Source of the DNA: Pelagibius litoralis
Lineage (GTDB): Bacteria; Pseudomonadota; Alphaproteobacteria; Kiloniellales; Kiloniellaceae
Reading direction: 5' to 3'
DNA: 64,000 nucleotides
NCBI RefSeq assembly: GCF_011683915.1
Contig: NZ_JAAQPH010000015.1
Coordinates: 62,001 to 126,000, forward strand
Under the pieces are notes generated by a model. It did no database searches. It worked only from the letters and a program-made list of their open reading frames with translations, and was not told the origin of the DNA. Shown here piece after piece: positions 41,564-52,655 of the stretch; within the stretch, counting starts at the first letter, position 1; each line of letters starts with the position of its first letter. Made by a program: the position numbers and the translations under genes.

Positions 41564-44500
41564 ATGGCCATTCGTCGTTGGCTGACGGCAATCGGTCTTG
41601 GGGGCCTCGCCGATACTTTTGAAGAGAACGACGTCGATCTTGAGATCGTGCCGGATCTCAGTGAGGAGGATCTGCGTCAACTCGGCCTGACCTTGGGCCA
41701 GCGCAAGCGTCTGCTGCGGGCCGCACAGGCGCTTGGCGGCGCCGAAGAGGATTCCCAAAGCAGCGTCGGCGCAAAAATCGAAAGAGTGCCTGCCGAGCGT
41801 CGCCACCTGACGGTGATGTTCTGCGACATTGTCGGTTCCACCGTGCTCTCAGAGCGTTTGGAGGCAGAAGACCTCCTGGAGGTGGTGCGGCGCTATCAGA
41901 CCTACTGCGCCTCTATCATCGGAACCCATGAGGGCTTCATCGCGCGTTACGTCGGCGACGGCATCCTGGCCTATTTCGGCTACCCGATGGCCCATGAGGA
42001 TGCGCCGGCTCATGCCCTGCACGCGGCTCTCAGCATCACCGAGGGGATCGGCGCCCTTGAAATGCCGGCGGACACGCAGTTGGCGGTGCGCATCGGCATC
42101 GCCTCCGGTGTGGTGATCGTCGGCGACCTGATCGGTGGCGGTGCCGCCGTCGAACAGCCGGCGATTGGTGTGGCGCCCAATCTGGCGGCCAGGGTTCAGG
42201 GGGTTGCCGGGCCGAACGAGATCGTGGTGGCCGACGTGACCTATCGCCTGACCCAGGATGCTTTCGACTTCGAGGACATGGGAAGCCGCGAGTTTCACGG
42301 CATCAGCGAGCCGGTGCGGACCTGGCGCGTGCTGGGTGAGCACAGAGGGGATCGCACCGATGTGAATTTCGGACGCTGGACCCAGACGTCCTTCGCCGAC
42401 CGCAGCGAGCCGCTCGACCTGCTGCGCGCGCAGTGGCAGCAGGTGCAGGACGCGCGGGGGCGGGTGCTGGTAATCTCCGGAGAGCCTGGTATTGGCAAGT
42501 CACGCCTGACCCATCAATTCCTGCGGGGGGTCGAGCAGGAAGCCACGATTCAGATCTACCAGGCGACGCCCTACAACCAGGATTCGCCGCTGCACCCGAT
42601 CATCCAACGGTTTCGCCTGATCGCCGGTATCGACCATGGCGACGGGCCGGTGGTGGTTCGCGAGAAGCTGGCGGCCATCGTGCAGGGCGAGGGTGCGGAG
42701 CGCGAGGCGCGGGTCGAGATCTTCGCCAAGCTGCTGACCCCGGTTTCGATCGACAATCCCCAGTCGCAGAGCGCTGCCAAGCAGAATCGCGAACGGACCC
42801 TGCAGGCGATCGTCGACTATTTCGCCGTGCTCAGCCGGATACAGCCTGTCGTTGTCGTCGTTGACGATTTTCAATGGCTCGACCCGACGTCTATCGAACT
42901 GCTGGACCGGGTTATCCATTCGATCGCTGACAAGCGTGCGCAGGTTCTGGTCACCTCGCGCAGCGGTTTTCATGCCCCCTGGGAGGCACTGGCCCATGTG
43001 ACGCAGTTGGAACTCGGGCGCCTGCCGGCCAAGGATACCCAGGCGCTGATTGCCAGCCTCGCCCAGGGAACCGCCCTGTCGAAAGCGCTGGTGGGTGAGA
43101 TCGCGGAAAAGGCCGACGGGGTTCCTTTGTTTGTCGAGGAGCTCACCAAGTCGGTGATAGAGCTCGATTTCGAACGGTCGATCAGGGGCAAGAGCCGTTC
43201 GCGCAAAGAGGCTTCGCGGGTGCCGATCTCGCTTCACGATTCGCTGATGGAACGGCTCGACCGGGTCGGTCCGGCAAAGGTTGTCGCTCGTGTCGGCGCA
43301 GTGCTGGGACGTTCCTTCTCGCGCGAACTGATTTCCACGGTCGGCGGTTTTGATCCGGCGCATCTGGATGCGGCACTCGTTACCCTGTCGGATGCCGGTC
43401 TGGTGCTTCGCGAAGTCGACCAGCGCGGCAAGGAAAACTTCGTCTTCAAACACGGCCTGGTGCAGGAAGCGGCCTACGCTTCTTTGCTGCGCGAGGAACG
43501 CCAACGGCTGCACGCCGAAACGGCTCAGGGCCTGCGCAAGCTGCGCGCGCGCATCGAAGAAGAACGCCCCGATCTCTTGGCCCATCACGTCAGCGCCGCC
43601 GGTTTGCATGAGGAGGCCGTGCGGCTCTGGCTTCGGGCTGGTCGGCTCAGCCTGGCCCAGTCGGCAATCGTCGAGGCGGTTCACCACCTGCGCCGCGGCC
43701 TGGATGCGCTGGACGAACTGTCGGACAGCAAGGAGGCCAAGGCGCTGCGGCTGCAGTTGCTGATCCACCTGGGCCCGGCCCTGATCGCTTTGCATGGCCC
43801 GGGGTCAAGCGAGGTGGAGGAAATCTACAGTCAGGGTTACGAGCTGTGCCGCAGCCTGCCTGAATCCCGCGATCACTTCCCGGTCTACTGGGGCTGGTGG
43901 CGCCGCTCGCGCGACTTCAACGAGATGAGCCAGCGCGCCGATGAGTTGTTGGGGCGGGCGCAGGCACGTAACGATGAGGAGCTGATGCTGCAGGCCCATC
44001 ACTGCCAGTGGGCTTCGCACTTCAACAGCGGCGATTTTCATGGCTGCATGGATCACATCTCCAGCGGCCTGGCGCTCTACGAGAAGGGCGACTACCGCAC
44101 CCACGCCACCCTCTACGGCAACCACGACGCCAAGGTCTGCGGCCACGGCGAGCGCTCCCTGGTTTACTGGCTGCTGGGCAAGCCGGAGGAGGCGATGGAG
44201 TCCGAGCGTCTGGCGCAGCGCTGGATGGAGGCCTTGGGCCACGGCGGCAGCTGGATGCATCTGAAGGACATCAACATCATGCATCGCCTCTATCGGCGCG
44301 ATGCGGTCGAGGTTCTGCGCATCGCCCAGGAAATGATCGCCTTTGCCGAGGACCAGGGGTTTTCCGATCATCGCGCCAAGGCTTTGGTCTTTTGCGGCTG
44401 GGCCCATGCCAGGCTTGGCGATCCGTCAAAGGGGCTGAGCGAAATCCGCGAGGGCCTGGAGCGCCAGATCGCCATCGGCACCGAAGAAGACTTTCCGGTC

Positions 44501-44911
44501 TACTACGACATGTTCGCCGAAGTGCTGGCCCTCAACGGCCGCATCGACGAGGCCCTTGAAGAGACGACGGCGGTGCAGGCGAAGTTCGAGGCCATGGGAT
44601 TGCGGATCTGGGCGCCGGAGCTGCGCCGGCGCATCGGATATTTGCTGCAGCTGCGGATGCCCAATGACCCGGAACCGGCCATTGCGGCTTATCAAGGCGC
44701 GCTCGATCTTTCCACCGAGCAGGGCGCGCGGACCCTGGCCTTGCGGGCCGCGACCAGCCTGGCGGGCCTGCTGAGAGGACAGGGCTTGAGCGATGTTGCC
44801 CGCGAGACCCTGGAGCCGCGCCTGGTCGGGCTGGAGGCGATGGCCGGTACGGCCGACTATGCCGCTGCGACGGCTCTTCTGGCGACGGCGCGCGGACGCA
44901 ACAGCAGGTGA
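41564..44911 (+). CDS. SAM domain/class III nucleotide cyclase/AAA ATPase/TPR signalling protein
   Basis: A 1115-residue cytoplasmic signalling protein. Domains: SAM-type helical domain (about 1-58, WLTAIGLGGLADTFEENDVD), class III adenylate/guanylate cyclase catalytic domain (about 78-255) with metal aspartates D88 (MFCDIVGST) and D132 (RYVGDGILAYFG), AAA_16/STAND-like ATPase with Walker A GEPGIGKS (306-313) and Walker B VVVVDDFQWLD, and a TPR-like helical C-terminus from about 620. Such fusions are common in alphaproteobacteria, and many have unknown outputs. Its last codons overlap the ycaO start (GTGA), tying it to the YcaO-TfuA genes. AAGGGAAGG precedes the ATG. Confidence 0.93.
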   Translation: MAIRRWLTAIGLGGLADTFEENDVDLEIVPDLSEEDLRQLGLTLGQRKRLLRAAQALGGAEEDSQSSVGAKIERVPAERRHLTVMFCDIVGSTVLSERLEAEDLLEVVRRYQTYCASIIGTHEGFIARYVGDGILAYFGYPMAHEDAPAHALHAALSITEGIGALEMPADTQLAVRIGIASGVVIVGDLIGGGAAVEQPAIGVAPNLAARVQGVAGPNEIVVADVTYRLTQDAFDFEDMGSREFHGISEPVRTWRVLGEHRGDRTDVNFGRWTQTSFADRSEPLDLLRAQWQQVQDARGRVLVISGEPGIGKSRLTHQFLRGVEQEATIQIYQATPYNQDSPLHPIIQRFRLIAGIDHGDGPVVVREKLAAIVQGEGAEREARVEIFAKLLTPVSIDNPQSQSAAKQNRERTLQAIVDYFAVLSRIQPVVVVVDDFQWLDPTSIELLDRVIHSIADKRAQVLVTSRSGFHAPWEALAHVTQLELGRLPAKDTQALIASLAQGTALSKALVGEIAEKADGVPLFVEELTKSVIELDFERSIRGKSRSRKEASRVPISLHDSLMERLDRVGPAKVVARVGAVLGRSFSRELISTVGGFDPAHLDAALVTLSDAGLVLREVDQRGKENFVFKHGLVQEAAYASLLREERQRLHAETAQGLRKLRARIEEERPDLLAHHVSAAGLHEEAVRLWLRAGRLSLAQSAIVEAVHHLRRGLDALDELSDSKEAKALRLQLLIHLGPALIALHGPGSSEVEEIYSQGYELCRSLPESRDHFPVYWGWWRRSRDFNEMSQRADELLGRAQARNDEELMLQAHHCQWASHFNSGDFHGCMDHISSGLALYEKGDYRTHATLYGNHDAKVCGHGERSLVYWLLGKPEEAMESERLAQRWMEALGHGGSWMHLKDINIMHRLYRRDAVEVLRIAQEMIAFAEDQGFSDHRAKALVFCGWAHARLGDPSKGLSEIREGLERQIAIGTEEDFPVYYDMFAEVLALNGRIDEALEETTAVQAKFEAMGLRIWAPELRRRIGYLLQLRMPNDPEPAIAAYQGALDLSTEQGARTLALRAATSLAGLLRGQGLSDVARETLEPRLVGLEAMAGTADYAAATALLATARGRNSR

Positions 44912-46200
44912 GGGCAGGCGTGGAACCGAGCCGGCGAAATGAGGTCGAGGGTACGGCGGCACCGGGTTCGGCCAAGATTTACCGCGGCGGTACCCATCGC
45001 TGCCGGCGGCCGGCGGACACGCTGGCCCGGGTTCTGCCTTTGGCGGCGCAGATGGGTATCACCCGTCTGGCCAACGTAACGGGGCTCGATAGCATCGGCA
45101 TCCCGGTGTATATGGCCAGCCGGCCGCTGTCGCGCTCGGTTGCCGTCTCCCAGGGCAAGGGCCTGACGGCAGAAGAGGCGAAGGTCTCCGCCTTTATGGA
45201 GGCGGCGGAAACCTATCACGCGGAGAACATTACGGCGCCGATCAAGATGGCTTCGTTGAACGAACTCGGCGAGAGGCATGCGGTCATCGATGTGTCGGGC
45301 CTGCCGTACTCGGCCCTGGGCGCGTTTCATTCGGAGCGCCGCATTCTTTGGATTGAGGGTGAGAGGCTCGGCACCGGTCGGGACGCTTCCCTCTGGGTGC
45401 CCCTGGAACTGGTCTCCACCGATTTCACTTTGCCGCAGCCGCCCGGCAGTTTTGCCTTTCCTGCCAACACCAACGGCCTGGCCTCCGGCAATTCGCTGGA
45501 GGAAGCCCAGCTCCACGCGCTCTGCGAGTTGATTGAGCGCGATGCCCTCAGCCTTTGGCGCCTCGGCGGCGATGCCGTGCGCGCGGCCAGCAAGCTGGAC
45601 CCGGCGACGGTTGAAAGCTCAGCCGCGCAGTCGCTCCTGGCGCGCTATCGCGATGCCGGACTGAACGTCGGCCTCTGGGATGTGACCGCCGATACCGGTG
45701 TACCGGTGTTCTGTTGTGCGGTGGCCGAACCCAGCGACACGGCGGTCGAGGCGGAACTGGGGGCGGGCTGTCATCCCGACCGGGAAGTGGCGTTGCTGCG
45801 GGCGCTGACGGAAGCCGCCCAGTCGCGCACCACGCGGATTGCCGGGTCACGCGACGACTATGTGCCGGAGAGCTACGATTCTGCCGCCAAGCTGGCCCGC
45901 AACCGCACGGCACAGCTTTGGCTGTCCGACCCGCCGCGCCGCAGCTTCGCAGATACCCCCAACCTCGCCGGACAGACCATTGACGAGGATCTCGGCGCCG
46001 TTCTGGCACGCCTCGCGGCCCTGGGAATGGATCAGGTGGTCTCCGTTGATCTCAGCAAGCCCGAGGTCGGCATTCCGGTGGCCCGGGTTGTGGTTTCGGG
46101 CCTGGAAGGGGCTTATCAGGGTGAGGGCAGCGACTACCGGCCCGGGAACAGGGCAAGGGCCCGCGGTTTGACGCTGCCGACTTGGCGGCCTGAGGTATGA
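44908..46200 (+). CDS. ycaO: YcaO-domain protein (ATP-dependent amide backbone-modifying enzyme)
   Basis: YcaO enzymes activate a peptide amide oxygen with ATP to make azolines or, with TfuA, thioamides. The 430-residue protein has the YcaO ATP/Mg motifs: SQGKGLTAEEAKVSAFMEAAETYHAEN (Ser81, Glu98, Glu101) and LHALCELIERDA (Glu207, Glu210, Arg211). It starts with GTG inside the stop of the cyclase gene and ends in an ATGA overlap with tfuA. The C-terminus TLPTWRPEV lacks the PxPxP tail of azoline-forming YcaOs. No separate E1-like/RRE partner or flavin dehydrogenase is nearby. Thioamidation is therefore the likeliest chemistry. Confidence 0.9.
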   Translation: MRAGVEPSRRNEVEGTAAPGSAKIYRGGTHRCRRPADTLARVLPLAAQMGITRLANVTGLDSIGIPVYMASRPLSRSVAVSQGKGLTAEEAKVSAFMEAAETYHAENITAPIKMASLNELGERHAVIDVSGLPYSALGAFHSERRILWIEGERLGTGRDASLWVPLELVSTDFTLPQPPGSFAFPANTNGLASGNSLEEAQLHALCELIERDALSLWRLGGDAVRAASKLDPATVESSAAQSLLARYRDAGLNVGLWDVTADTGVPVFCCAVAEPSDTAVEAELGAGCHPDREVALLRALTEAAQSRTTRIAGSRDDYVPESYDSAAKLARNRTAQLWLSDPPRRSFADTPNLAGQTIDEDLGAVLARLAALGMDQVVSVDLSKPEVGIPVARVVVSGLEGAYQGEGSDYRPGNRARARGLTLPTWRPEV

Positions 46201-47597
46201 GACCGGCGGTTTTCCTCGGCCCCAGTATGCCGCGACAAGACGCGGAAGCGCTGCTTTCAGCAGATTTTCACCCCCCGGTTCGTCAGGGCGATGTCTACCG
46301 GATCGTGCGGGAGAAACGGCCGAGCGCCATTGCCATCATCGACGGCTACTTCCAGGAAGTGCCCTCGGTCTGGCACAAGGAAATCCTCTGGGCACTGGAT
46401 CAGGGGATCGCTGTTTTCGGGGCGGCCAGCATGGGGGCCCTGCGGGCGGCCGAGCTGGAGCGCTTTGGCATGCGCGGCGTGGGTCGGGTCTTTGAGGCTT
46501 TCCGGGATGGCATCTATCCCCCCTACGCCAATGACGTTTTCGAGGACGACGACGAAGTTGCCGTCATTCACGGTCCGCCGGAACTGGGCTTTCCCGCGCT
46601 TTCCGATGCCATGGTCGATCTGCGGTCCACCTTTGCGCGGGCGGCTGAAGAAGGCGTGATCGACGAGGCCTTCCGCGACCGGCTGGTCTCAGCTTTCAAG
46701 CAACGCTTCTATCGGGAGCGCAGCGTGGCAGACCTTCCGGATGTTCTCGCCGGTCTCGATGCCCCGTCTTCGCTCTGCGAGGCCCTGCAGGCCTGGCTGC
46801 CGGGCGGGCGCGTCGAACAGAAACGCGACGATGCCAAGGCACTTCTCGGCATTCTGGCGCGGGAGAAACCAACCGATGACAACAAAGCAGATGACAACAA
46901 AGCGAAGGACTGTGTCTTCGTTTTCGAGCGTACGACGCTTTGGGCGCAGTTCATCGAAGCAAGCCATGATCGCTCAAGCGGTTATGGTGCTGCTGCCGGC
47001 AAGGTGACGGCGGCGGAAAACCGGGTGTTGGACGAGCTGCGGCTGAACCCGCCGCTCTTTGCCGAACTCCGTCCCTTGGCCGCCTTGCGCTATGCCTGCC
47101 TCTCAGGCAAAGCCATGGACGCGCCGGGCGATGTGGAACGGCGTGCCGCACTCAACCGCCTGCGCCGGCGCATGGGGCTGTGGTCGCGCGATGCACTGGA
47201 GACCTGGGCGCGGGTCAACGACCTCGACCGTGCCGGTCTTGACCGGCTGATCGAAACCGAAGCGCTCATCGAGCAGCAGGCCACCAGTGCCGCTTCAGGG
47301 TTGGACGCCTTCTTGCTTGACATTTTGCGTAGCGAAAGTCGCTATGAAGCTTTGGCGCGGCGCGCCGTCAGCAAAGCCGAGAGCGAGGCGGATGACGAAT
47401 CACGGGGAATTGATTCACTGACGCCGGCGTTTCTGGTGGACTGGTTTTTTGAGGAACACCTTGGCAAGGCTGCGCCGCATGATCCACGCGCAGTCTCCGA
47501 AGAGCTTGGGTTTGCCACCTTTGATAGCTTTGTGGAGGCGCTGGCGCGCGAGTATCGTTACGCCCGCCGGCTTTCGGCGGGGGATGCGGAGCCGTGA
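46197..47597 (+). CDS. tfuA: TfuA-like protein (YcaO partner)
   Basis: TfuA proteins accompany YcaO in thioamide formation (methyl-coenzyme M reductase, thioviridamide family) and in trifolitoxin synthesis, where they are thought to deliver or mobilise sulfide. The N-terminal TfuA core is clear: VFLGPSM at the start, IAIIDGYFQEVPSVWHKEIL, and AVFGAASMGALRAAELERFGMRGVG, then PPYANDVFEDDDEVAVIHGP. The 466 residues exceed the roughly 200-residue core, and the C-terminal half is an extra helical region of unknown role. It overlaps ycaO by four bases. Confidence 0.9.
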   Translation: MRPAVFLGPSMPRQDAEALLSADFHPPVRQGDVYRIVREKRPSAIAIIDGYFQEVPSVWHKEILWALDQGIAVFGAASMGALRAAELERFGMRGVGRVFEAFRDGIYPPYANDVFEDDDEVAVIHGPPELGFPALSDAMVDLRSTFARAAEEGVIDEAFRDRLVSAFKQRFYRERSVADLPDVLAGLDAPSSLCEALQAWLPGGRVEQKRDDAKALLGILAREKPTDDNKADDNKAKDCVFVFERTTLWAQFIEASHDRSSGYGAAAGKVTAAENRVLDELRLNPPLFAELRPLAALRYACLSGKAMDAPGDVERRAALNRLRRRMGLWSRDALETWARVNDLDRAGLDRLIETEALIEQQATSAASGLDAFLLDILRSESRYEALARRAVSKAESEADDESRGIDSLTPAFLVDWFFEEHLGKAAPHDPRAVSEELGFATFDSFVEALAREYRYARRLSAGDAEP

Positions 47598-47640
47598 CGC
47601 GGTGTGCGGACGATGGAGCCTGTGAGCCTGGGGGATGGTG

Positions 47641-49095
47641 ATGCTGACCGATAGGCACTTGCGATTGGACGGTGTGGCGGGTGGTACCCGCTTTCGCCTC
47701 TTTCCGCAGATGCCCGATCTTGAGGGCTTTGCGGAACCGGAAACCGTTCTGGTCTCGCCGCGCCCGGGCACCATCGGGGCCGGTCCCTTCGATGGCGCCA
47801 TGCGGGTTGTCGATCCGATCGACAAGCCGGAGCCCTACGCCTTTCCGGACATGCCGCCCTTCCAGGGCGCTGTCTTCCCGCCGGCCGTTCCGAATCGCGA
47901 TGGCCACTTCGATCACATTCCCTTGGACAGCCGGCAGTTTCTCTCTGCGCATATGTACGGCTCCGTCCGTTTCGTTCTGGACATCTGGGAGAGCTACTTC
48001 GGCAAGATGGTCGATTGGTACGATCCGCGCGACGGTTTCCTTGTGGAACTGGTGCCGCAGGTTGCCTGGGACAATGCGCATGCGGGTATCGGATTCATCG
48101 AGACCGGCGGGCGGATCAATCGCCATGGCGAGTACCAACCCTTTGCATTGAATTTCGATGTGCTGGCCCATGAGGTCGGTCATACCCTGCTGTTCTCCGA
48201 ACTGGGGATCCCCAGCTCTGCCGGTCTGACCCCGCAGTTCCTGGCTTTCCACGAATCGATGTCGGACATGGTTGCATTGCTCTCCACATTGCACTTCGAG
48301 AGCATCACCGACGATCTGATCGATCGGACCGGCGGCAACCTCTATGTCCTGAATTTTCTCAACCGGATTGGCGAGTTGTCCGACAGCGAACAGATCCGCG
48401 TCGCCAGCAATTCTGCGGTCATGGCGGATCTCGCGGATCTGCAGCTTGCACCCGATGGAGAATGGATCGATCCGACCGGCCAGGGCCGCAACGGGCATCA
48501 CCTGGCGCAGCCGCTGACCGGCGCGATCTTCGATTCCCTTATTGAAATCTATCAGGATGGGCTGGCGCAGCGCGGGCTCATCGCCGGCGGTCTCGACCCC
48601 CGCGGCTGGGACCGCGAGGCGGTGGCCGGCAGCCTGGAGGGCTTCCAGGCCGCCTCGTCCAACAGCCTCGCGCTGCATCGCCCGGCTTTTCTGGACGCAC
48701 TGAACGAAGCGCGCGACATCGTTGGCCTTGCTCTGGCGCGCACCTGGCGACGGCTTGATCCCAATAACCTCAGCTTTGCCGATGTGGCGGGAACCTACCT
48801 CGATGCGATGGCCGAGTTGGGGCAGGGGCATAATCTGGAAGCCTTTGCGCGCGACTTTCTTGCCCGCGGTATCGATGTTCCCGGCATCAATGTTCCGGGC
48901 ATCAATGTTGGGGGTGGCGGGCGCCCGGTTGAAGATTCTCCGCCGCCTGCATCGGCGCCTTACCTCGTGCGTTGGCAATGGATCCAACGTCGGCGGAGGA
49001 ACCTGTCGGACGCGCAGGCAGGCGTGCCAGAAGGTGTTGATTCTTACGAGCGCGTGTATCGCATGTTTGACCACAGTTTCAGGTTGGGAATGTGA
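47641..49095 (+). CDS. gluzincin-type metalloprotease, no signal peptide
   Basis: A 484-residue predicted zinc protease. HEVGH (177-181, in VLAHEVGHTLLF) gives two zinc ligands and the catalytic Glu; FHESMSD (203-209) gives the third ligand Glu205 in the thermolysin-like ExxSD arrangement. There is no signal peptide, so it should act in the cytoplasm. Near the C-terminus a short VPGIN repeat and GGGG linker precede a basic segment. The ATG at 47641 is six bases after GGGGG. It follows tfuA by 43 bases. I infer processing of the cluster's modified peptide or protein; a general protease is less likely in this context. Confidence 0.8.
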   Translation: MLTDRHLRLDGVAGGTRFRLFPQMPDLEGFAEPETVLVSPRPGTIGAGPFDGAMRVVDPIDKPEPYAFPDMPPFQGAVFPPAVPNRDGHFDHIPLDSRQFLSAHMYGSVRFVLDIWESYFGKMVDWYDPRDGFLVELVPQVAWDNAHAGIGFIETGGRINRHGEYQPFALNFDVLAHEVGHTLLFSELGIPSSAGLTPQFLAFHESMSDMVALLSTLHFESITDDLIDRTGGNLYVLNFLNRIGELSDSEQIRVASNSAVMADLADLQLAPDGEWIDPTGQGRNGHHLAQPLTGAIFDSLIEIYQDGLAQRGLIAGGLDPRGWDREAVAGSLEGFQAASSNSLALHRPAFLDALNEARDIVGLALARTWRRLDPNNLSFADVAGTYLDAMAELGQGHNLEAFARDFLARGIDVPGINVPGINVGGGGRPVEDSPPPASAPYLVRWQWIQRRRRNLSDAQAGVPEGVDSYERVYRMFDHSFRLGM

Positions 49096-49128: not shown

Positions 49129-49215
49129 ATGATCGCCGAAGGGGCGCAGCAAGCTGGGCGATTGGATTCTTTTACACAGCAGATGCTTAGTTTATTCTGG
49201 AGGAGGGGAAATTAA
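49129..49215 (+). CDS. possible 28-residue small ORF coupled to the repeat-protein gene
   Basis: An ATG at 49129 opens a 28-codon frame (beginning MIAEGAQQAGRL) whose TAA overlaps the next gene's ATG in a TAATG arrangement. The ribosome-binding site is weak. It may be a leader peptide that couples translation, a tiny RiPP-type precursor, or chance. Confidence 0.3.
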   Translation: MIAEGAQQAGRLDSFTQQMLSLFWRRGN

Positions 49216-49796
49216 TGGCCGATGACAATGACAAACGTGGAGACGTGTCGATCTTTGACGAAACACTTCTGGCTTCATCGCAAGTGAGGCTCTTTGGAAG
49301 GGTCTTCCGCGGGTTGAAGATCGATGAGGAGGGGCTGGGGGCGTTCAATGACGACAAGCGGCCGTTCAACAAAAACCCGCTGACGGATAAGCTCGATCCG
49401 GAGCTGAAGCCGGGTTTGGCGCGGATCTATGGGTTTTCTTTCGAAGGCAGCTATTACAAGCTTCAGGCGCCTTATGTCTTCCTGGTCCATGGGCCCGGCG
49501 TTGACATCAAAGAGCCGACGAGCGTTGCCGATACCGGCATCGAGATGAAGGACGAGCGTTTTCTCGAAGGCGTGAAAATGTGGTCCTATGACAAGGTGGA
49601 TTTCTCGGTGCGCATCGACATCGTCAGCGGCTGGATGGAAGAGATTCTTCTCGATGCGGCGATCGGCAATACCAGCAACATGACGGCTGGTGAGTTTACC
49701 ACCCGGGCCGACATGGGCGCGCGGGCGGATATGACGTCGCGGGCGGATATGACGGCCAGGGCCGACATGGCCATGCGCAGCCGCTTCAAAGGGTAA
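49215..49796 (+). CDS. cysteine-free protein with C-terminal RADMxx hexapeptide repeats
   Basis: A 193-residue protein of no family I recognise, preceded by an excellent GGAGGAGGGG site. Residues 1-155 are a mixed alpha/beta, acidic region without a signal peptide or any Cys. From residue 164 a six-residue unit repeats four times (RADMGA, RADMTS, RADMTA, RADMAM), and the protein ends RSRFKG. The last gene of the YcaO-TfuA-protease group, it is the best candidate for the modified substrate: a folded leader with a repetitive core. Alternative: a structural or Met-rich metal-binding protein. The absence of Cys excludes thiazole formation. Confidence 0.7.
   Translation: MADDNDKRGDVSIFDETLLASSQVRLFGRVFRGLKIDEEGLGAFNDDKRPFNKNPLTDKLDPELKPGLARIYGFSFEGSYYKLQAPYVFLVHGPGVDIKEPTSVADTGIEMKDERFLEGVKMWSYDKVDFSVRIDIVSGWMEEILLDAAIGNTSNMTAGEFTTRADMGARADMTSRADMTARADMAMRSRFKG
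49704..49775 (+). repeat. four tandem 18-base coding repeats (RADMxx)
   Basis: Four in-frame 18-base units encode the hexapeptide repeats of the preceding gene. Wobble positions differ between units (for example GCCGACATG versus GCGGATATG), so the repeat is conserved at protein level rather than being a recent slippage expansion. Confidence 0.8.
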
Positions 49797-50947: not shown

Positions 50948-50986
50948 TTGCCATATTTTGATATTTTGACAATTATGAAAATATGG
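50948..50986 (+). promoter_or_regulatory. promoter and operator dyad of the arsenic operon
   Basis: CCATATTTT (50951-50959) and AAAATATGG (50978-50986) are perfect nine-base arms of an inverted repeat that ends over the arsR start codon at 50983. A possible sigma-70 promoter, TTGCCA (50948-50953), 17-base spacer, AATTAT (50971-50976), would start transcription near the ATG, giving a leaderless mRNA. This fits the lack of a Shine-Dalgarno sequence. Confidence 0.5.
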
Positions 50987-51342
50987 ATGAGAACAGATCG
51001 ATACAGGCGCTGGCCGCGCTTGCTCAGTCGACCCGGCTGGCGGTTTTCCGCCTTCTGGTTCGCGAAGGGCCGGCCGGGCTTGCGGCGGGCGTCCTGGCTG
51101 AGCGGCTGGAGGTTCAGCCGGCCACCCTCTCGTTTCATCTGGCCCAGTTGGAGCGGGCGGGCCTGCTGGTCTCGCAAAGGCGCAGCCGTCAGATCATCTA
51201 TGCGGCGGATTTTGCCGGCATGCGTGGGCTTGTGGACTTCCTGTTGGCGGACTGCTGCGGTGGCCGCCCGGAAATCTGCGCCGGTCTTGCGGGATCGCTG
51301 GTGGCAGCTGGCAGGCGGGACAAGCCAGCGCCGGCAGCGTGA
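50983..51342 (+). CDS. arsR: ArsR-family arsenic-responsive repressor
   Basis: Winged-helix repressor, 119 residues: recognition helix in AERLEVQPATLSFHLAQLERAGLL and a C-terminal LLADCCGGRPEICAGL, where C91, C92 and C99 form the CC-x6-C pattern known from As(III)-sensing ArsR proteins such as that of Acidithiobacillus. Binding of As(III) should release the repressor from the dyad over its own start codon. It is the first gene of arsR-arsC-aqpS. Confidence 0.92.
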   Translation: MDENRSIQALAALAQSTRLAVFRLLVREGPAGLAAGVLAERLEVQPATLSFHLAQLERAGLLVSQRRSRQIIYAADFAGMRGLVDFLLADCCGGRPEICAGLAGSLVAAGRRDKPAPAA

Positions 51343-51413
51343 GATCGGTGGCGAGGGGCCCTGGAGGCGGCAAAACGTTCACCTGTTGCGATAACTCAGG
51401 AGCAAAGGCAGAC

Positions 51414-51938
51414 ATGAACAAAGGCGGCATGACTGACAGGGTTTACAACGTCCTCATTCTTTGCACCGGCAATTCCGCCCGCAGCATCATGGCGGAATCG
51501 ATTCTCAACCGGGTGGGCGCCGGTCGGTTCAAGGCCTACAGCGCCGGCAGCCATCCGGCCGGCCGGGTTCACCCCTATGCGATCGATCTGTTGAAGAGCC
51601 TCAATCACCCGGTCGATCATCTGGCCAGCAAGTCCTGGGATGTTTTCGCGGGCGAGGGCGCGCCCCGGATGGATTTCGTCTTCACCGTCTGCGACAACGC
51701 GGCGGGCGAGGCCTGTCCGCTCTGGCCGGGCGCGCCGATGCGGGCCCACTGGCCTTTCCGCGATCCCGCGGCAGCCGAGGGTTCCGAAGCGCAGAAGCGC
51801 CAGGTCTTCGCCGATGTCTACGGGCAGATTCACAAGCGGGCGGAGATTTTCGTGAACCTGCCCATGAGCGCTCTCGATAAGCTCAGCCTGCAGAAGCGCC
51901 TGGACGAGATGGCGGCTTCCTTTTCAGAGTCCGCTTGA
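51414..51938 (+). CDS. arsC: arsenate reductase, low-molecular-weight phosphatase type
   Basis: Reduces arsenate to arsenite with thioredoxin. The P-loop LILCTGNSARS (C-x5-R) and the second and third redox Cys in VCDNAAGEACPLWPG are all present, as is HWPFRDPAAAEG. I use the ATG at 51414 (174 residues, with CAGGAG upstream) rather than a longer in-frame extension into arsR; an ATG at 51429 is also possible. It is the middle gene of the operon. Confidence 0.93.
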   Translation: MNKGGMTDRVYNVLILCTGNSARSIMAESILNRVGAGRFKAYSAGSHPAGRVHPYAIDLLKSLNHPVDHLASKSWDVFAGEGAPRMDFVFTVCDNAAGEACPLWPGAPMRAHWPFRDPAAAEGSEAQKRQVFADVYGQIHKRAEIFVNLPMSALDKLSLQKRLDEMAASFSESA

Positions 51939-51956
51939 CGCGAAAGGCCTGATGTC

Positions 51957-52655
51957 GTGAACCAGGATCTTGCCCGCCGTCTCGCCGCAGAAGCCCTCGG
52001 CACCGCTTTTCTGCTGGCCGTGGTAGTCGGCTCCGGCATCATGGGTGAGAGCCTGGCCGGTGGGAATACCGCCATCGCCCTCCTCGGCAACACCATCGCC
52101 ACCGGCGCGATCCTGGTGGTCTTGATCCTGATTTTCGGGCCGCTTTCCGGCGCCCATTTCAACCCGGCGGTCACGCTTTCCTTCGTGATGCAGGGCAAGC
52201 TGGAAAAGCGTGTCGCCCTGCTTTATGTGGCGGTGCAGATTGCCGGGGCGCTGGCCGGCATGCTGATCGCCCATGCCATGTTCGAAGAACCGCTGTTCCA
52301 GGCCTCCGCGAAGCTGCGCACGGGGCCTGCGCAGTGGCTGGCGGAGTTCGTCGCCACCTTCGGTCTGCTGGCCACCATTCTCGGCTGCGTCAGGTTCCGG
52401 GTTGAGGCCGTGCCCTTTGCGGTAGGGCTCTACATCACCGCCGGTTATTGGTTCACGGCCTCGACCTCCTTTGCCAATCCCGCCGTTACCATCGCGCGCA
52501 GCTTCACCGATACCTTCTCCGGCATCAGGCCGCTGGATGCACCGGGCTTCATCGTCGCCCAGCTGCTGGCGGCCGTGGCGGCAACCCTGGTTTTCGGCTG
52601 GCTGCTGGCGCCCCGGGCCGCGGCATCCCGGGCCGCGGAACGGGCTGCCGAATAG
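51957..52655 (+). CDS. aqpS: MIP-family aquaglyceroporin, AqpS-like arsenite channel
   Basis: Channel protein of 232 residues with six helices and both half-helix NPA motifs (HFNPAVTLSF and FANPAVTIAR). In Sinorhizobium meliloti the equivalent AqpS lets arsenite made by ArsC leak out of the cell, replacing an ArsB/Acr3 pump. The arrangement arsR-arsC-aqpS without a pump here fits that model. Start is a GTG, with AAAGG upstream. The C-terminus is Ala/Arg-rich and probably cytoplasmic. Confidence 0.9.
   Translation: MNQDLARRLAAEALGTAFLLAVVVGSGIMGESLAGGNTAIALLGNTIATGAILVVLILIFGPLSGAHFNPAVTLSFVMQGKLEKRVALLYVAVQIAGALAGMLIAHAMFEEPLFQASAKLRTGPAQWLAEFVATFGLLATILGCVRFRVEAVPFAVGLYITAGYWFTASTSFANPAVTIARSFTDTFSGIRPLDAPGFIVAQLLAAVAATLVFGWLLAPRAAASRAAERAAE

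Follow-up and report, generated by a model that had tools for sequence, protein, structure and literature searches.

A repeat-tailed candidate precursor in a conserved operon with YcaO, TfuA, a putative zinc peptidase, and a neighbouring nucleotide cyclase gene

Described YcaO-TfuA systems and the Pelagibius litoralis locus

The closest described counterpart of the locus examined here is the thiovarsolin cluster of Streptomyces varsoviensis (varA-varY-varT), in which YcaO and TfuA are encoded beside a repeat-containing precursor (PMC6511847). According to the passages of that paper on the cluster, precursors of the thiovarsolin type have a variable number of imperfect C-terminal repeats (none to five), the mature short peptide has its thioamide on the residue preceding an arginine, and no specific protease is part of the cluster. 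In methanogens, a YcaO-TfuA pair acts on a glycine of an enzyme, McrA, as outlined in the relevant part of PMC5589413. A 2021 global survey (PMC8120280) covers proteobacterial TfuA-YcaO clusters that resemble the present one in gene pair, phylum, and rhizobial hosts; the portions of the survey concerned with them mention no repeat precursor, thermolysin-like protease, or cyclase, and its main text contains no word that starts with "repeat". In the pertinent sections of a 2026 source, thioamide-forming YcaO enzymes outside sulphide-rich habitats are described as tending toward a thiocarboxylated carrier together with TfuA, and YcaO enzymes as able to modify intact proteins (PMC13063428).

The stretch of DNA analysed here, 64,000 nucleotides from one contig of Pelagibius litoralis, is referred to as the window. 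It contains a cluster of five genes on one strand, in the order cyclase protein, YcaO, TfuA, a peptidase candidate (pep), and, last, a repeat-tailed protein (rep). The 3' end of the cyclase gene (41564–44911, + strand) overlaps the start of the YcaO gene (44908–46200, +), which encodes 430 aa and has a Pfam E value of 3.8e-85. TfuA (466 aa) follows at 46197–47597 (+), with PF07812 at residues 49–176 (Pfam E 3.7e-43). These matches bear out the YcaO and TfuA neighbours named by the initial annotation, and the pep gene, which it did not mention, lies between them and rep. A tandem repeat scan also picked up a small in-frame repeat of the DDNKA type (period 15) within the TfuA gene, at 46875–46903. 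The gene after rep encodes a HAD-type hydrolase (Pfam) and is on the opposite strand. Farther along, at 50983–52655, an ArsR-like regulator, a low-molecular-weight phosphatase/arsenate-reductase-like protein, and an aquaporin-like protein were recognized by eye and together resemble an arsenic resistance operon.

The YcaO-TfuA pair resembles the methanogen pair acting on McrA in its best NCBIfam models (TIGR03266 and NF033432) and in the nearest solved relative of YcaO, MJ1094 (6pe3, phmmer E 3.9e-42), but the scores of 254.7 bits for YcaO (cut-off 365) and 180.9 bits for TfuA (cut-off 235.2) fall under both model cut-offs. LynD (E 5.3e-19) and TruD (E 1.7e-18) are far weaker matches to YcaO than MJ1094, which forms thioamides. 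The nearest solved relative of TfuA is 6xp8 (phmmer E 7.5e-30). To our knowledge, no repeat precursor accompanies the methanogen McrA pair. Going by sequence relationships, a thioamide would be the expected modification in the product.

Like VarA of the thiovarsolin cluster, rep combines a conserved leader region with variable C-terminal repeats beside YcaO-TfuA, though not in every lineage. Unlike the thiovarsolin system, the putative leader is a conserved domain of at least ~150 aa without relatives in the searched libraries, the cluster includes a thermolysin-fold protease candidate and a cyclase gene, and the Ala/Gly-Pro-Arg core does not occur, there being no Pro in any of 13 unit types. 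Across the family, rep is 149–281 aa long (with start codons chosen by us), outside the short-precursor range of 20–120 aa given in the survey part of PMC6511847, and for this reason rep is not counted as a thiovarsolin-like member. It would work like a precursor of that type rather than belong to the class. The 20–120 aa range is the RiPPER survey window as stated there, and a filter of this kind would miss rep precursors (PMC6511847). YcaO-TfuA repeat cores as such are already known from the thiovarsolins. Among the full-text matches listed, mostly from openly accessible literature, no report of the protease-and-cyclase module or of rep precursors was found.

The reading we favour, for which we see equal chances of being right and wrong, is that rep is a precursor from which a modified oligopeptide is made in multiple copies. 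The N-terminal domain, which is conserved, would be a large leader bound by YcaO and TfuA, and these would swap one backbone carbonyl oxygen for sulphur (a thioamide) in each C-terminal unit. Pep would cut the disordered array to give several copies of a peptide of 4–7 residues, and the neighbouring nucleotide-cyclase protein would control or sense the process. Where a lineage has no array, its rep would contain just one core, and in a Rhizobium lineage without nearby YcaO-TfuA the peptide would be unmodified or the enzymes encoded elsewhere. If this is true, a set of orphan YcaO-TfuA pairs would have its substrate, its protease, and possibly its sensor in this module, which would also supply many natural unit variants for working out YcaO-TfuA specificity. 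The cluster suggests a little-studied route to many copies of a small modified peptide.

Tandem units of rep in the window and across the family

The rep gene (49215–49796, +) was taken from the open reading frame list and by direct reading; it encodes 193 aa from an ATG start, and a Shine-Dalgarno-like element, GAGGAGGGG, with a GAGGAGG stretch, is read directly ahead of it at 49200–49208 (+). Residues 164–187 are four hexapeptides, RADMGA, RADMTS, RADMTA, and RADMAM, encoded by a tandem array at 49704–49775 (+) with units starting at 49704, 49722, 49740, and 49758. The initial annotation had placed four RADMxx repeats at exactly this position, and the array scores 10 at period 6, where 300 shuffled versions of the protein reach at most 5. 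It had also described the tail as free of Cys, and Cys is indeed absent from it. Among 16 codon pairs one unit apart, eight are identical, five synonymous, and three non-synonymous.

AlphaFold predicts a beta-rich domain within residues 1–150 and a disordered tail at residues 151–193, where pLDDT is below 50. A folded N-terminal part, as annotated at first, is moderately supported in stretches (pLDDT ~76–82 at residues 21–40, 61–100, and 121–130) and less so between them, where confidence is lower; the whole model has a mean pLDDT of 58.3 and a pTM of 0.52. Foldseek with this low-confidence model returned nothing at E ≤ 0.001 (best E 1.1), a result that says nothing on whether the fold is new. 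The window protein had zero matches in Pfam, NCBIfam, PHROGs, and PDB sequences. Across 28 family members, none matched Pfam at E ≤ 0.01, NCBIfam gave a single weak hit for one member, to a dehydrogenase model (E 0.0088), and neither library placed any member in the Nif11 or nitrile-hydratase leader families. Rep thus belongs to a family absent from the searched libraries and, as described below, sits within a conserved operon.

Alignment of homologues showed that the N-terminal domain is kept and the tail is not. This is the pattern that the initial annotation had proposed to look for: the number of units varies (four in the window, five in the nearest relative, a Pelagibius metagenome-assembled genome (MAG), L040), and the unit sequence changes by lineage. 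Arrays were called by comparing a period score with 300 shuffles per member, and 27 of the 38 rep members scored, the window's included, have one. The 11 array-negative members are L035, L045, L048, and L064–L071; in L045, imperfect R-x-D-x-Q units are visible by eye even though it scored as array-free, and L078 and L079, which were outside the period scoring, have no array by eye. Units are 4–7 residues long, occur in 3–12 copies, and give way to other units from one lineage to the next. The Pelagibius group has RADM/RADL or SRVDM units, Roseobacters and L047 have SGGKAY, and the first kind of Mesorhizobium has GMSAR. Further types are GRSDLV, SGQRVRA, SRMAMA, SRSAAA, VSGAR (eight copies), GMNV (four copies), and SRAVMA and SRAAMA, whose arrays reach 11–12 copies.

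The codon pattern points to selection on the peptide of each unit, because the DNA has drifted far while the peptide is unchanged. Over 27 arrays, codon pairs one unit apart were identical in 337 cases, synonymous in 362, and non-synonymous in 39, and in 12 less redundant arrays the counts were 169, 171, and 20; since protein matches decided which segments were counted, the non-synonymous share is biased downward, and the counts are raw, not set against a neutral expectation. The synonymous wobble reported by the initial annotation is modest in this gene alone (five synonymous to three non-synonymous) and stronger in these family-wide counts. That the array is a functionless by-product of slippage is hardly credible. 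Short tandem arrays do expand in this way, and copy number varies among close relatives, but the units are near-identical as protein and far less so as DNA, and the deepest supported split of the protease tree has arrays on either side.

Unit composition was compared over 13 types, a set that excludes the imperfect L045 units and the SRSGG type from Rhizobium. No residue is common to all 13, and a universal modified residue was rejected on this ground. Six types are free of Met (RADLSA, GRSDLV, VSGAR, SGGKAY, SGQRVRA, and SRSAAA), and RADLSA, the Leu form of the window's unit, accounts for three or four units out of five in L042–L044, which are from the same genus as the window. The copper- or silver-binding tail offered as an alternative by the initial annotation does have a basis in the Met of the other seven (RADMTA, SRVDMS, GMSAR, SRMAMA, SRAVMA, SRAAMA, and GMNV), but with 6 of 13 types lacking Met, and the Leu form dominating in close relatives, we consider it highly improbable.

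Ser or Thr occurs in 12 of the 13 types and Cys in none; the exception, GMNV, has none of the three. Because a backbone thioamide needs no Cys, Ser, or Thr, it would suit GMNV units, and because these units lack all three residues, an azoline is not the product of the whole family. Linear azol(in)e-containing peptides have a Cys, Ser, or Thr in each unit, which the rep family as a whole does not. An azol(in)e-type product in place of a thioamide has in its favour that YcaO is of the cyclodehydratase superfamily and that nearly all unit types offer a Ser or Thr. It is nonetheless very unlikely: apart from the missing Cys and the GMNV units, the window's own unit, read in the register GARADM, has neither Ser nor Thr, and the YcaO is far closer to MJ1094 than to LynD or TruD and is paired with TfuA.

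If the thiovarsolin rule holds, the thioamide site would by analogy be the Ala or Ser before Arg. The motif [AGS][RK] is present in 11 of the 13 types (7.9 in shuffled units, P = 0.036) and [AGST][AGS][RK] in 10 (4.9 shuffled, P = 0.001), all of the motifs tried having been picked after the units were seen; the looser [AGS].?[RK], present in 12 types with 10.8 in shuffled units, was not significant (P = 0.25). A hydrophobic residue in each unit was considered as a thermolysin-like cleavage site and set aside, as its frequency is given by composition alone (12 of 13 types, 12.0 expected). In the array-free clade formed by L064–L071 and rhizobial plasmid loci, the C-terminus of rep is conserved as (L/M)PGxRSPxxYA or YS, and this tail is perhaps a single-copy core.

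Distribution of the module and loci that lack the array or YcaO-TfuA

Named genomes were scanned with one peptide pattern of the rep domain, followed by a tblastn check, which gave 32 loci. The hosts are Pelagibius, other Kiloniellales/Rhodospirillales, Skermanella, Mesorhizobium (two kinds), Roseobacter, Roseovarius, and Tateyamaria, along with MAGs labelled Gammaproteobacteria, Competibacteraceae, marine bacterium, and Proteobacteria. The order YcaO-TfuA-pep-rep on one strand is found in 31 of the 31 loci with a contig reaching upstream of rep (in the 32nd, L043, the contig ends there), a count that is blind to the Rhizobium lineage without YcaO, whose rep domain does not have the scanned pattern. 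Nine additional regions were fetched, of which L080 duplicates L048. In seven of the eight distinct regions YcaO, TfuA, and pep are all present, the YcaO of L077 being truncated where its contig stops. In the other, L075, TfuA, pep, and rep are together and the sole YcaO of the genome (G291) is on another contig.

Rep relatives occur in 8 of 8 genomes of the genus, 14 of 61 of the order, and 7 of 385 sampled from the class, the P. litoralis genome being counted in each. At 409 bits or more, pep was found in eight of the 385 class-sample genomes, and all eight have TfuA alongside on the same contig; TfuA occurs anywhere in only 20 of 372 genomes of the class sample. Seven of the eight also have rep, and in the eighth (G130) pep stops 39 bases before the contig end. 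These co-occurrence counts come from related genomes. This module accounts for about one-third of the places where TfuA occurs in the class sample (8 of 24, own genome included). Three weaker pep-like matches (55–78 bits) have no TfuA in their loci of 2.4–3.7 kb, and their genomes are not among the 20 with TfuA, although the TfuA sample may not include them; they were taken to be other peptidases and not members of the module. The module is also present on large rhizobial plasmids: of the 124 plasmid records with pep, 115 are from Rhizobium, and 19 of the regions were looked at.

The widely shared genes in the flanks of the loci are those of the cluster itself (cyclase, YcaO, TfuA, pep, and rep). 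Flank comparison showed no exporter or immunity gene common to more than four lineages; an ABC-type ATPase, identified by eye, appears at one locus in each of four lineages.

The initial annotation had read the array as the core of the YcaO substrate, a claim to be given up if homologues next to YcaO-TfuA lacked the tail or if the protein were common without YcaO. The presence of YcaO-TfuA beside rep in all 31 loci agrees with that reading, but both kinds of contrary locus turned up in part, which leaves it partly supported. YcaO-TfuA is present and the array absent in L048, L079, L073, L078, and L064–L071, as well as in 13 of the 19 plasmid regions, all rhizobial, where YcaO-TfuA accompanies a rep without units. 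The reverse holds in five of the 19 (L106–L109 and L117; 15 kb fetched), all on Rhizobium plasmids, which carry the cyclase, pep, and a rep with three MSRSGGA-type units and have no YcaO-TfuA within ~7 kb. Taking adjacent genes above the Pfam cut-offs as the mark of a YcaO-TfuA cluster, the window has one and the surroundings of rep at these five loci do not. Since array-free YcaO-TfuA loci and YcaO-less array loci both exist, a neighbouring YcaO-TfuA pair does not require the array, nor does the array require the pair.

The rep type of these five loci was found on 49 Rhizobium plasmid records (the five regions included) and in 22 of 130 Rhizobium genomes (one match being weak and interrupted), with a more distant rep on two Paracoccus records. 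In a second protease tree, the YcaO-less lineage forms one group within the TPR-cyclase clade (100/100, clade of 14), the rest of which consists of rows with YcaO-TfuA; YcaO presence changes twice on this tree and array presence three times. Because the YcaO-less lineage nests as one group among YcaO-TfuA rows, the pair was probably lost once in it, and occurrence of rep without YcaO looks like loss. All five regions also have a small protein of ~110 aa after rep (8979–9311 in L106), which may be a replacement part.

TfuA is present somewhere in 22 of 22 genomes with this rep type, as it is in 124 of the 130 sampled Rhizobium genomes, and a YcaO query matched all 35 Rhizobium genomes searched (21 with and 14 without this rep type). 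These counts therefore say nothing on whether the YcaO-less lineage draws on a YcaO-TfuA pair encoded at another place. In the regions around eight of these YcaO places (L191–L198; four genomes with and four without the rep type), a YcaO-TfuA pair is always accompanied by a cyclase-like match, and pep and rep are absent. In L191–L196, a conserved stretch of 88 aa (beginning MFEQ or MFDQ) follows TfuA, inside a longer frame in L191 and L195, and could be the own substrate of this separate Rhizobium pair.

The main rival to a released peptide is a tail that stays on the protein. The array would then be a multivalent disordered docking or assembly tail, YcaO-TfuA would have the N-terminal domain or its border as target, in the way that YcaO modifies McrA or uL16, and the role of pep would be to trim or activate the protein. 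The domain is the constant part of rep, YcaO-TfuA is kept without the array and the array without nearby YcaO-TfuA, and YcaO thioamidation of intact proteins is known from the relevant part of PMC13063428. We hold this explanation to be rather unlikely all the same. A mere disordered tail needs no exact units, yet 362 synonymous changes stand against 39 non-synonymous ones (with the selection bias given above), and the units, though uniform inside a gene, are exchanged wholesale for others from one lineage to the next, as would rather be expected of a product that is released.

The neighbouring cyclase and the protease

The first gene of the cluster (41564–44911, +) encodes a signalling protein of 1115 aa with a SAM domain, a class III nucleotide cyclase domain, and AAA_16 (Pfam); a weak TPR_2 match in its C-terminal part falls short of the cut-off (E 0.029). 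A class III cyclase gene lies beside the cluster in 38 of the 39 loci with enough contig, the window included; L075 is the exception, and L043 and L077, cut by contig ends, are set aside in this count. The gene can be upstream or downstream and in either orientation. Adjacency by chance is unlikely, because the whole 6.0 Mb genome has only 13 class III cyclase domains. Two types were distinguished. The type in the window combines SAM, cyclase, and AAA_16, and that of L064 has cyclase and AAA_16 with no TPR at E ≤ 0.001. The second type, for example in L047 (7206–8972), has a cyclase domain and clear TPR repeats without AAA. These types track the protease tree, in which one branch with 100/100 support divides the rows 15 to 18: the TPR type accounts for 14 of 15 on one side and the AAA type for 17 of 18 on the other, the two misses being L075 and the contig-limited L077. 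From the tree, the pattern suggests that the cyclase partner was exchanged at one stage of the module's evolution. The positions that we take to be the metal-binding Asp residues of the cyclase are kept throughout, in 31 of 31 rows at one (counting rows that have a letter at that position) and in 32 of 32 at the other, and the presumed functional Arg is kept in 32 of 32; the Asn of the motif, presumably also functional, is Ala in 6 of 32, all from the L064-type lineage.

A module that is primarily for signalling, with the released peptide as the ligand of the neighbouring cyclase protein, acting as a multi-copy intracellular or exported pheromone, is quite unlikely in our estimate. In its favour, 38 of 39 loci have a cyclase gene alongside, when the genome has only 13 such domains, and the two cyclase types track the protease tree; the TPR repeats of the L047 type point the same way, as do the flanks, where no exporter or immunity gene is common to more than four lineages. 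Against it, the ligand role of the peptide is read from gene context, TPR is not established in the window type and does not appear in L064 at the threshold above, the motif Asn is replaced in the L064-type lineage, and cyclase-AAA genes are common in these bacteria. We also regard as decidedly doubtful a widespread peptide-signal system in which rep would be a carrier presenting the array, the thioamide would protect or activate the units, pep would release them, and the cyclase protein would read them and give a cyclic-nucleotide signal. Reading would be through the TPR repeats in one of the two cyclase types, and the lineage-wise replacement of unit sequences would resemble private codes; its chances, like those of the signalling reading above, are slightly reduced by the lack of securely identified TPR repeats in the cyclase protein of the window.

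For the favoured precursor reading, release of the units would fall to pep, a candidate thermolysin-like (M4/M36 fold) zinc peptidase of 486 aa (47635–49095, +) assigned from Foldseek and invariant residues. All 25 of the 25 aligned members have H179, E180, H183, and E207 unchanged; we take H179, H183, and E207 to be the zinc ligands and E180 to be the catalytic Glu of the fold. The predicted structure has a mean pLDDT of 76 and a pTM of 0.81, and Foldseek matched it to vibriolysin (3nqx, E 1.9e-5) among 27 PDB chains at E ≤ 0.001, with TM on target of at most 0.64. Pep is like thermolysin, vibriolysin, and LasB in its fold, HExxH motif, and distal Glu. It is unlike them in that no Pfam family, the M4 model included, matched above cut-off, no signal or propeptide is visible by eye, and the gene lies in a biosynthetic-type operon; it therefore has the HExxH and third Glu of M4 peptidases without a match to the M4 sequence family. 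Reprolysin_4 was matched by 4 of the 25 members (best E 0.00023), the window protein scoring 16.2 bits against a cut-off of 22. Rep is the obvious candidate substrate of pep, because the two are together in every locus looked at whose contig reaches, except in Nostoc.

A small in-frame tandem repeat of the VPGIN type (period 15) was detected within pep at 48867–48909 by the tandem repeat scan. The Nostoc exception, the nineteenth of the plasmid regions, is from a plasmid of Nostoc sp. UHCC 0302, outside Proteobacteria, where region L100 (7995–14184) contains a relative of pep with 39.9% identity across 83% of the query. The region has no YcaO, TfuA, cyclase, or rep matches. The pep relative adjoins two ferritin-like proteins and a radical SAM protein, and the locus is perhaps a different modification system that shares the same protease.
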